Assembly: GCA_030153935.1 (NCBI GenBank)
Contig: JASKKX010000011.1
Coordinates: 1-37,803 of the forward strand
Source of the DNA: Verrucomicrobiota bacterium
GTDB lineage: Bacteria; Verrucomicrobiota; Kiritimatiellia; Kiritimatiellales; Tichowtungiaceae
Reading direction: 5' to 3'
Length of the DNA: 37,803 nt
Shown: positions 3,991 to 6,498 of the stretch, piece after piece
Layout of the letters: every line of letters begins with the position of its first letter
Numbering within the stretch: position 1 is the stretch's first letter
The notes under the pieces: generated by a model
Database searches by the model: none
What the model was told of the DNA's origin: nothing
The model's input: only the letters and a program-made list of their open reading frames with translations
Program-made: the position numbers and the translations under genes

Positions 3991-4071
3991 AGTTGCTTCA
4001 CCGATCCAGCGGCCCTTAATCATATAGGAATCGATTTTCCCCTCTCTCAACACCTTCCGGAAGAAAAGAAG

Positions 4072-4158
4072 TGGTGCCGGAGGAGGGACTCGAACCCTCA
4101 TGGTATTGCTACCGCGGGATTTTGAGTCCCGTGCGTCTACCAATTCCGCCACTCCGGC
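4072..4158 (-). tRNA. tRNA-Leu(CAA)
   Basis: Class II tRNA with acceptor GCCGGAG/CTCCGGC, D-arm TGGCGGAATTGGTAGACGC, anticodon loop CTCAAAA (CAA), a long variable arm, T-loop GGTTCGAGTCC and encoded CCA. It lies upstream of panC on the same strand. Confidence 0.95.
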
Positions 4159-4317
4159 TTCGTGAGAAAGGTGAAAAGGCGAAGATAGAAAACCCCCCCG
4201 CCTTTTGCAAGCAGGGGTTTTAGCAATATGGACTGCGGCGGCTTCCCGGCACTTTTCAGCATGTATGCTTCGGAGGAAACGAAATGCAGGCGAGCCTGCG
4301 CCTTCCGGAAGAAGTTC

Positions 4318-5295
4318 TTACTGCGCGGTTATTTCGTCGAAAAAATTCACGAAATCATTTTTTTGTTCGCTTTCGCGCAGCTTGATGGCAGCACGTGGAT
4401 GCTCGTTCATCTGGCCGGTAATCATGTACGGCACGCTGTAGCCCCAGTCGATCCGGTCGCGCAAAGGAAGCAACAGTTTTTCAACCGCTTCAATGGCCGG
4501 ACGCTGTTTAAATTTCGGATTGCGCAGGAACCCAAGAAGCAGTTCTGTCGGACAGTTTCCCGCTCCGCGACCCAGTCCATCGAGAGTGGAGTCGAGCAGG
4601 GTCGCCCCGTGAATTGCTGCATAAATTGTATTGGCGTAAGCCATCTGCTGGTTATTGTGCGCATGAATACCAACCCGTTTCTCTTTGCCCATGGCGGTGA
4701 GGTACCGACGCATCAGGTCATCGATTTGTTCGAAGTAGAGCGAACCGAAGCTGTCAACAAGATAGATCATATCGGTTTCGCTTTTTCCGATCAGCTCCAG
4801 GCCTTTGTTGAGTTCAAATTCCGGTACGGTGGAAATAGCCATCAGGTTAACAGAGGTCTCATACCCTTTGTCTTTGGCATCTTTGACCATGTCAAGAGCG
4901 GTAGGAATCTGATGGATGTAGCAGGCGACACGAATGAGATCGATCATACTCTGGTCCGCCGGAACAATATCGCTTTCATTGGTGCGTCCGACGTCGGCCA
5001 TCACACTGATTTTGATGCCCGGATCCTGTTCACCGAAGAAGCGGTTCAGATCGTCTTCGTCACATGACTTCCAGATACCGTATTCTTCAGGGTTGAACAG
5101 TTGTTTGTCCGCCTTGTACCCGATCTCCATATAGTCGATGCCGGCAGCGACCAATGCCTTATGAACGCCCCGTACAAATTCATCTTGAAATTGATGCTTA
5201 TTCATCAGCCCCCCATCGCGAATCGTGCAGTCGAGCACTTTGAGCTGCGGCCAGAAATCAACCCATTCCGCACTGGTATCCTGCTGTTTTATCAT
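4318..5295 (-). CDS. HMGL-like (DRE-TIM) aldolase family protein
   Basis: A 325-residue TIM-barrel protein of the HMG-CoA-lyase/4-hydroxy-2-oxovalerate-aldolase superfamily. Near the N-terminus DCTIRDGG carries the metal-binding Asp and catalytic Arg. HAHNNQQMAYAN supplies the two metal-binding His, and GLGRGAGNCPTELLLGFL matches the superfamily's glycine-rich motif. The substrate is unknown; related proteins occur in Bacteroides and Akkermansia without an assigned reaction. ATG 5295 is preferred because a strong Shine-Dalgarno TAAGGAG lies 7 nt upstream and the product then starts with the barrel. The frame stays open upstream to 5484, adding 63 residues that look like the N-terminus of a phage integrase, so a longer fusion product cannot be excluded. 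Confidence 0.85.
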   Translation of the reverse strand: MIKQQDTSAEWVDFWPQLKVLDCTIRDGGLMNKHQFQDEFVRGVHKALVAAGIDYMEIGYKADKQLFNPEEYGIWKSCDEDDLNRFFGEQDPGIKISVMADVGRTNESDIVPADQSMIDLIRVACYIHQIPTALDMVKDAKDKGYETSVNLMAISTVPEFELNKGLELIGKSETDMIYLVDSFGSLYFEQIDDLMRRYLTAMGKEKRVGIHAHNNQQMAYANTIYAAIHGATLLDSTLDGLGRGAGNCPTELLLGFLRNPKFKQRPAIEAVEKLLLPLRDRIDWGYSVPYMITGQMNEHPRAAIKLRESEQKNDFVNFFDEITAQ

Positions 5296-5484
5296 TTTTT
5301 TCTCCTTAAACGTTTCCCCGCTTTTCGCCTCTTCCACCTTTTCGTTCATTCGGCGAAGCGCCTCCTCACGATCTGCGGTCTGCAATGACTCAGAATACTG
5401 AATGCCGTCAATTTTCTGCCGCCAGTAGTAAACGCCGCCGCGAAGCTTCAGGTTTTTTATTCCGGTTCCTTCAAATGTCGTCAT
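5296..5484 (-). pseudogene. Tyrosine-recombinase N-terminal remnant, in frame with the aldolase
   Basis: Sixty-three codons from ATG 5484 run without a stop into the aldolase gene. The peptide (LRGGVYYWRQKIDGIQYSES, then LQTADREEALRRMNEKVEEA) has the pattern of the arm-DNA-binding/N-terminal region of phage-type integrases: a short beta-sheet 'x-W-x-R-x-x-x-x-G', S-L-x-T, then a basic helix. Core and catalytic domains are absent. The aldolase's own Shine-Dalgarno lies inside the last codons. It is most simply a scar of a deleted integrase whose 5' end survives upstream of a housekeeping gene. A true fusion is less likely but possible. Confidence 0.55.
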
Positions 5485-5540
5485 AACGCATCACAAAAAT
5501 TGATCAACTTAATTAATATATGATGCGCCTATGATGCGTT
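5485..5540. repeat. Inverted and direct ATGATGCG repeats upstream of the integrase remnant
   Basis: AACGCATCA at 5485-5493 is the exact inverse of TGATGCGTT at 5532-5540. A further direct copy of ATGATGCG lies at 5520-5527. The repeats begin right before the ATG of the integrase remnant, in an AT-rich region shared with the divergent thyX. They could be old integrase-arm or attachment sites, or a regulator site for the two divergent genes. Confidence 0.5.
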
Positions 5541-5646
5541 TATATTTTTAAATATCAACCTTTAATTCAAATTGTTTGAATCCCCTTGCCGGATGGACCA
5601 TGATGAAGAGCTCATCGATATTGATATTTTTCACAGGGGTGACCGA

Positions 5647-6498
5647 ATGGCACATATCACAGTTCTTGAGGCTGAAAAACTGCTCGATCAGGAAATTCCA
5701 GTCCTGGACAAAGGGTTTGTCCGTCTCGTGGATTACATGGGCGGGGATTCACGAATCGTTCAAACAGCAAGGGTTTCCTACGGCGAAGGAACCAAAACCG
5801 TTCGACAGGATGCCGGTCTGATTGATTACCTGCTGCGCCACGAGCATACCTCTCCCTTCGAACATGTGATTTTTGAGCTGCATTGCAAAATGCCTATTTT
5901 TGTCGCCCGCCAGTGGGTTCGCCACCGCACGGCTCGTCTGAACGAAATATCCGGTCGATACAGCGTAATGAAGGATGAATTTTATCTGCCGCCCCGTGAG
6001 CAGATCAGTCTGCAAAGCATCGATAACAAGCAGGGCAGAAATAAAGAGTCTGTCCCGGTTGAACTCCAGGATAAAGTTCTCGAACTGCTCAAAAAGGACC
6101 AGTCCGCGTCTTACGCCAACTATACGGAAATCCTTAATGACGGAATCGCCCGTGAACTGGCGCGCATCAATCTGCCGCTTTCGATGTATACCGAATGGTA
6201 CTGGCAGATGGATCTTAAAAATATGCTGCATTTCCTTAAGCTGCGCATGGACAGCCACGCCCAATGGGAAATTCAGGAGTATGCGCGCGCTATAGCAAAG
6301 ATTGTTAAAACAGTCTGCCCGATGGCCTATGAATCATTTGAACGCCACATCCTTCACGGTGCCAAGCTTTCAAGCGACGAGATTGCCGCTGTTCAATGCC
6401 TGATCGCCGGAAAACCCAATCCGCTTGAAGGCCGTCGCCTGGCCGAATTCAACGACAAGCTCAACCGTGTTTCGGCTCTGCAGAAACCGGCGGAGTAG
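5647..6498 (+). CDS. thyX: Flavin-dependent thymidylate synthase
   Basis: A 283-residue FAD enzyme that methylates dUMP to dTMP with methylene-tetrahydrofolate and NAD(P)H, in place of ThyA. The ThyX signature RHRTARLNEISGRYS starts at Arg92. Ser102, eight residues after Arg94, is the conserved RHRX7S serine. The stretch HTSPFEHVIFELHCKMPIFV matches the family. The third residue after RHR is Arg where many ThyX have Ser; this position is not the active-site Ser. ATG 5647 is preserved behind AGGGGTG at a good spacing. Upstream in-frame ATG 5593 and TTG 5572 lack such a site but would add up to 25 residues. It is divergent from the aldolase and convergent with orn. Confidence 0.95.
   Translation: MAHITVLEAEKLLDQEIPVLDKGFVRLVDYMGGDSRIVQTARVSYGEGTKTVRQDAGLIDYLLRHEHTSPFEHVIFELHCKMPIFVARQWVRHRTARLNEISGRYSVMKDEFYLPPREQISLQSIDNKQGRNKESVPVELQDKVLELLKKDQSASYANYTEILNDGIARELARINLPLSMYTEWYWQMDLKNMLHFLKLRMDSHAQWEIQEYARAIAKIVKTVCPMAYESFERHILHGAKLSSDEIAAVQCLIAGKPNPLEGRRLAEFNDKLNRVSALQKPAE

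Follow-up and report, generated by a model that had tools for sequence, protein, structure and literature searches.

An integrase-type arm-binding domain fused to a DRE-TIM aldolase: a candidate autoregulatory cassette in Kiritimatiellia

Introduction

PutA, BirA and NadR, known as trigger enzymes, are enzymes that also repress their own genes, and they use ribbon-helix-helix or helix-turn-helix domains. The arm domains of the lambda and Tn916 integrases are instead built from three strands followed by a helix; the arm-type sites of lambda are direct repeats, and integrases often adjoin tRNA genes. In the KplE1 prophage, the integrase IntS negatively autoregulates its own gene; the arm site P'1 overlaps the -10 box, mutation of P'1 also hits that box, and single mutations in the other arm sites are reported not to relieve repression (PMC2951348). 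Self-repressing integrase genes with arm sites in the promoter and enzymes that repress their own genes are both already known. Among the open-access literature matches listed, nothing concerns an integrase arm domain that is fused to an aldolase or that regulates an enzyme, and neither a DRE-TIM enzyme fused to a DNA-binding domain nor a Pontiella integrase was found in that literature.

Here we describe a gene from a Verrucomicrobiota bacterium of the order Kiritimatiellales (class Kiritimatiellia), located in a 37,803-nucleotide stretch of DNA (hereafter, the window) that is one contig of a 2.0-Mb draft genome. Like PutA, BirA and NadR, its product joins a DNA-binding-like domain and a metabolic enzyme in one chain, with an operator-like array at its own promoter, but the domain is of the integrase arm-binding type. 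The likeness to IntS of KplE1 would lie in self-repression through arm-type promoter sites, one of which overlaps the -10 element; the differences are that an aldolase replaces the recombinase body and that the boxes, as far as seen, serve this gene only. The fusion protein would behave as a hybrid of an autoregulated integrase and an enzyme-repressor, without clear full membership of either group.

Results

The fusion gene occupies positions 4318-5484 on the minus strand and encodes 388 amino acids, in a frame that is kept in its relatives. An N-terminal domain of 63 residues (5296-5484, minus strand), predicted to form a beta-beta-beta-alpha arrangement, leads through an open, stop-free frame into an aldolase part of 325 amino acids (4321-5295, minus strand). 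The initial annotation, which named no strand, had described 63 integrase-like codons running in frame into an aldolase, a Shine-Dalgarno sequence of the aldolase's own within the fused segment, and direct and inverted repeats just upstream, and each of these features is present: the minus-strand reading frame is uninterrupted from 5484 to 4318; AAGGAG at 5302-5307 (codons 60-61, minus strand) sits 6 nt ahead of a second ATG at 5293-5295 (minus strand; M64), the presumed start of a free aldolase; and GCATCA at 5532-5537 and 5521-5526 is followed by TGATGC at 5488-5493. In Pfam, residues 1-63 taken alone hit DUF6538 (29 bits against a cut-off of 27, E 8e-7), and HMGL-like (PF00682) is found at residues 81-321 (E 7e-25, 88 bits, cut-off 29). 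At E<=1 the fusion protein yields only these two families and two weak unrelated ones, and the Phage_integrase catalytic domain (PF00589) is absent. A full-length AlphaFold2 model was of low confidence (mean pLDDT 64) and was used for secondary structure alone.

A profile of the aldolase part matches the putative aldolase 3dxi (E 2.6e-41) as well as 4-hydroxy-2-oxovalerate aldolases. Residues R89, D90, H274 and H276 are invariant across the aligned fusion proteins, as are the motifs RDGG and HAHNN, which we take to be metal and catalytic motifs of the HMGL-like/DRE-TIM superfamily, and by sequence the aldolase part belongs to that superfamily. It shares the HMGL-like domain and both motifs with the 4-hydroxy-2-oxovalerate aldolase family but differs from it in score, falling far short of the NCBIfam cut-offs for that enzyme (123.2 of 286 bits for TIGR03217 and 129.3 of 229 bits for PRK08195.1). 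The window protein also scores under the NCBIfam cut-offs of all enzymes listed. Many relatives that are free of the domain, about 43-55% identical, occur in Clostridia-type MAGs among the 80 matches listed, and no aldolase match was found in two genomes of the same genus (G005 and G012, 87 and 84% complete).

The kinship of the N-terminal domain was examined by profile searches, and it is the integrase homologues found in this way that lead us to call the segment integrase-like. A profile of 21 domain sequences matched many open frames of approximately 440 residues across the phylum; three of the four such proteins scanned carry Phage_integrase above its cut-off, and the fourth (G056, 203 aa) gave a sub-threshold DUF6538 match alone. 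Aligned with hhalign to 13 integrase N-termini, the domain reached a probability of 98.6 and an E of 1.3e-15 over 48 columns at 33% identity, an E that is optimistic since the 13 partners came from matches to the domain profile. DUF6538 was matched at E<=0.1 by all 19 domains scanned (best 2e-7). These comparisons identify the segment, at the sequence level, as a homologue of the N-terminal, arm-binding domain of tyrosine recombinases.

Structural comparison is only suggestive of the same kinship. In the AlphaFold2 model (mean pLDDT 78.6) the domain is predicted as three strands followed by one helix, and its size and predicted beta-beta-beta-alpha order are like those of the arm domains of lambda Int and HPI/P4-like integrases (1z1b, 2wcc, 3jtz, 3rmp), at 14-25% identity over aligned residues. 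In a structure search (VIA), the HPI integrase arm domain (3rmp, Z 4.5; 3jtz, Z 4.0), lambda Int (1z1b, Z 4.3) and an AP2 domain (6sy0) lay within Z 4.0-4.8, whereas unrelated proteins reached up to Z 5.0; the arm-domain scores of 4.0-4.5 are weak and fall below or level with the unrelated MurC/MurF. The best Foldseek hit for the domain model had an E of 0.5, and a PDB sequence search with the domain returned one match at E 0.19.

To assess the distribution of the fusion, we surveyed genomes of the order and the class. The domain is present in 19 of 43 genomes of the order, and a search of 345 genomes of the class gave 22 with a match, namely these 19, two from another family, and an integrase remnant in G056. 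The fusion itself occurs in 21 of the 345, each time in frame into the same kind of aldolase, and is shared across three families of the class, two of which belong to the order, in differing gene neighbourhoods. In 21/21 sequences the domain spans exactly 63 residues ahead of the internal methionine and its frame is open, and 25 of its 63 columns are invariant among them. Its median dN/dS is 0.132 (150 measurable of 190 pairs), a rough figure given that many pairs are near synonymous saturation (median pS 0.67), and the domain is under purifying selection. The 21 include a gene split over two contigs (G004, with the fusion visible into 93 aldolase residues and left out of the dN/dS pairs) and one cut at its C-terminal end (G002); a further genome in which a contig edge leaves just the final part of the domain (G029) is outside the 21, yet is labelled as domain-bearing in the aldolase tree. 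In 20 other short or mid-sized frames with the domain, drawn from class and phylum matches, the sequence behind the domain matches integrases in 14, and no other enzyme was recognised in any of the 20, the remaining six being short or without a match. Searches of phages gave no match to the domain, viral contigs gave one matching protein that by eye is unrelated, plasmids gave one weak match to a hypothetical protein, and in PHROGs the window domain matched nothing, the search yielding two weak single-member matches.

The region upstream of the fusion gene holds, in 21/21 cases, two direct GCATCA boxes and, 2-6 bp before the start codon, an inverted TGATGC; the array is exact in 20 of the 21 domain-bearing genes, with one mismatch in box 2 of G026. 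In the window (all minus strand), box 2 (5521-5526) is a direct repeat lying 11 bp downstream of box 1 (5532-5537) and over the presumed transcription start, and box 3 (5488-5493) lies 3 bp before the start codon. The spacing between boxes 1 and 2 is 10 bp in 12 genes and 11 bp in nine, and that between boxes 2 and 3 is 12-14 bp in six genes and 31-34 bp in 15, two classes that are about two helical turns apart. This layout of direct repeats resembles that of the lambda arm sites.

The position of the boxes relative to the promoter was assigned with the sigma-70-type consensus, assuming that its rules hold for this phylum. In 19 of the 21 genes a TTGACA-like hexamer (<=2 mismatches) precedes box 1 by 21-22 bp, as TTGACA itself in nine and as the presumed -35 element TTGATA in the window (5553-5558, minus strand), matching the consensus at only four of six bases in G007 and G001; there is no recognisable -35 element in the other two genes (G320 and G323). 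Given this distance, the CATCAT or CATCAA of box 1 would stand at about the -10 position, and in the window box 1 overlaps the presumed -10 element CATCAT (5531-5536, minus strand). In G320 and G323 (L133/L134) the array comprises a third direct box alongside the usual two and the inverted one.

Across the order's 43 genomes the composite array was counted 18 times, each immediately upstream of the fusion gene; the exact array is found nowhere else in those genomes and once per genome, and a reversed-pattern control gave 0 matches in the same 43. It is likewise absent before 73/73 domain-less relatives of the aldolase for which the upstream sequence sufficed (10 from the class, plus 63 of 66 from elsewhere, three being dropped for short upstream sequence), where upstream was counted from the start of the match rather than from a mapped start codon; single boxes do occur before domain-less relatives, with three GCATCA in G048 and one TGATGC each in G038 and G031. 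Chance occurrence of the repeats is ruled out by the empty reversed control and by this absence. A wider regulon was also considered: the two direct boxes alone gave 22 matches in 14 genomes of the genus (reversed control 0), 12 at the fusion gene and 10 elsewhere, and all 10 of the latter were taken as coding sequence because they lie inside stop-free frames of 460-747 codons with no inverted box within 60 bp. The exact array at a single genomic site thus points to autogenous control only.

The gene neighbourhood varies. A thyX gene is divergent from the fusion gene in the window (5641-6498, plus strand) and in four of 13 fused relatives with flanks, some of them short (L052, L053, L054 and L063), and other relatives have thymidylate synthase A and dihydrofolate reductase genes upstream, Pfam-checked in one (L058:2274-3792), which looks like an in-place swap of one thymidylate pathway for the other beside the fused aldolase. 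An operator shared with thyX was rejected as the reason for the array, as the array is kept in all of these genes whether or not thyX is the neighbour, though the boxes may still act on thyX in the window. Downstream of the aldolase, a tRNA-Leu(CAA) gene lies at 4072-4158 (minus strand), and one is found within approximately 350 bp downstream in five of 19 loci scanned, some with short flanks (L052, L053, L055, L056 and L063).

Within the fused segment, conservation extends to the choice of codons. Codon 60 is AAG in 21/21 genes, though AAG makes up only 52% of Lys codons in these genes; codon 61 is GAG in 19/21, though GAG makes up only 46% of Glu codons; and the preceding codon is TTA in 15/21 and no other Leu codon occurs there, TTA being 3.7% of Leu codons. 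The common nucleotide sequence is TTAAAGGAG, 6 nt ahead of the internal methionine, which is invariant in 20/20 aligned proteins, and aldolases that lack the domain begin at the corresponding place. By this codon usage, the internal AAGGAG and ATG are conserved at the nucleotide level, and together with the start position of the domain-less aldolases they suggest that a free aldolase, without the domain, is probably made as a second product.

We also examined the upstream regions of related integrases, with 91 loci reduced to 43 that share no 14-mer upstream; start codons were assigned automatically and some of the loci are integrase fragments. Using as criterion a 10-base direct repeat with <=1 mismatch and a spacing of 10 or 11 within the upstream 160 bases, repeats were found in 11 of the 43, against 0.45 expected in shuffles, and no other spacing from 6 to 39 exceeds two of the 43; the remaining 32 lack such a repeat under this criterion. 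As the criterion was set after a first look at 31 loci, the non-redundant loci fetched later were counted separately, and repeats were present in five of these 21 against 0.27 expected, a count reached by 0 of 300 shuffles. The combination of the domain with this repeat layout is thus over-represented in these integrases, each of which has a different motif. GCATCA is not common to them: it was found in one of 31 upstream regions, once, before the G056 remnant, where the exact GCATCA is followed 11 bp on by what by eye is an imperfect GTATCA. This remnant (L050/L135, near 28700 of G056 contig C16) adjoins a tRNA-Arg gene and, among relatives of the domain that are not fused, scores highest in the class search (E 1.6e-7), and by sequence it is a candidate for the source lineage of the cassette. 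The 5' end of an integrase gene is the likely ultimate source of the 5' part of the fusion, and its boxes would derive from arm-type sites.

A second aldolase lineage (type B), approximately 61% identical to the type in the window, also has domain-bearing members, and their domains share 66-86% identity with those on the window's type. In the aldolase tree, many inner branches of which are weak (9 of 28 starred), the domain-bearing type-B rows lie interspersed among domain-less ones; still, a single clade for all five is rejected (p 0.0013), whereas in the domain tree the four complete type-B domains form one clade with support of 96/94. The type-B fusion of G024 has a mosaic junction, with MTKARDISSEP like the window's type followed by a stretch ending in SAGWVTFDP like type B, which places the end of the graft approximately 10 codons inside the aldolase. 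In the four type-B fusions, dS of the domain (0.40-0.66) is lower than that of the aldolase (0.77-1.76), a difference to which constraint on synonymous sites could add. Judged from these alignments and trees, the whole block of promoter, boxes, domain and internal start appears to have been grafted onto the other aldolase, and gain of the type-B domain by transfer fits best, the alternative being repeated loss.

Discussion

We consider with fair assurance that a domesticated integrase 5' cassette turns this aldolase into an autogenous regulator of a single target, probably acting as a repressor. On this reading, an aldolase gene would have co-opted the 5' end of a tyrosine-integrase gene, including its promoter, arm-type sites and arm-DNA-binding domain, as a regulatory cassette. 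The inverted box and both direct GCATCA boxes, the latter separated by 10-11 bp or roughly one turn of the helix, would then most likely be bound by the fused domain and together serve as an operator at the gene's own promoter. With box 1 at the presumed -10 element and box 2 at the presumed start site, binding should block transcription, and the KplE1-like geometry points to the fusion protein as an autogenous, single-target repressor of its own promoter. Use of the internal ribosome-binding site and start as well as the first start would also yield domain-free aldolase, so that one transcript could give both a regulator-enzyme and an enzyme, and, more speculatively, the aldolase's ligand might modulate binding. 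We hold with more reserve, yet on balance favor, the broader proposal that the cassette is portable, with promoter, arm-type sites, arm-binding domain and internal ribosome-binding site moving as a block, and that an aldolase gene on which it lands becomes self-regulating and dual-product.

The repeats could instead act in RNA, with box 2 (or box 1) pairing with box 3 in the leader to hide the ribosome-binding site of the first ATG and with the domain only secondary. Boxes 2 and 3 are complementary, and 7-10 bp are paired in the minimum-energy structure of all four leaders folded, but the leader z-scores are only -0.9 to -2.2 and flanking positions lack consistent compensation (an outer pair is possible in 16/21 and an inner one in 17/21). 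An Rfam search of window positions 4000-5800 returned the tRNA and two sub-threshold matches over it, and nothing at the leader. Control at the DNA level is the better fit for direct copies one helical turn apart, a box 1 that keeps 21-22 bp from the -35 element, and spacing classes that differ by about 20 bp; a hairpin would leave the direct repeat unexplained, and the array was not found without the domain. We therefore regard control at the RNA level as unlikely. Still less probable in our view is that an active mobile element has the boxes as its attachment-arm sites, with the fused protein a recombination accessory factor for an integrase in trans. The domain and the site layout are as in integrases and the block has apparently passed from one aldolase gene to another, yet the next match to the domain profile in the same genome reaches only E 0.049, the exact array occurs once per genome, and a graft that stops about 10 codons inside the aldolase has the look of ordinary recombination and not of site integration.

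The initial annotation had offered two accounts of the locus, an old element that excised imprecisely and left its 5' end and promoter driving the aldolase, or a DNA-binding/aldolase fusion. It suggested looking for the extension and the repeats in aldolase orthologues of relatives; both are present in the 21 genomes with the fusion, and the extension proved neither unrelated to integrases nor ordinary aldolase sequence. A conserved fusion is thus the account that stands, from its presence in 21 genomes under purifying selection, its homology to integrase N-termini and the repeats that accompany the domain, with DNA binding a presumed property of the domain. A local imprecise excision is not supported, given a fusion found in three families and differing neighbourhoods and an apparent block graft onto a second aldolase lineage; what survives of that account is an inherited promoter, repeats and 5' end, which likely go back to an integrase gene. 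The least probable reading is a neutral relic, in which a residual integrase 5' end does no more than provide the promoter and its translation is accidental. The aldolase does seem to own an internal start and so would not need the extension, but purifying selection (dN/dS 0.13), 25 of 63 columns invariant in 21 sequences, a constant length of 63 residues with an open frame in 21/21, and the block on the second aldolase lineage all speak against it.

The preferred reading, an integrase-derived autoregulatory cassette, also has consequences beyond this gene. The fusion offers a handle on the aldolase family. If the reading is correct, integrase arm domains would be a source of bacterial transcription factors, and a domain and operator unit transplanted from integrases to an enzyme gene, retained by selection and present on a second aldolase lineage as well, would represent a concrete route by which mobile elements provide ready-made regulatory circuits.
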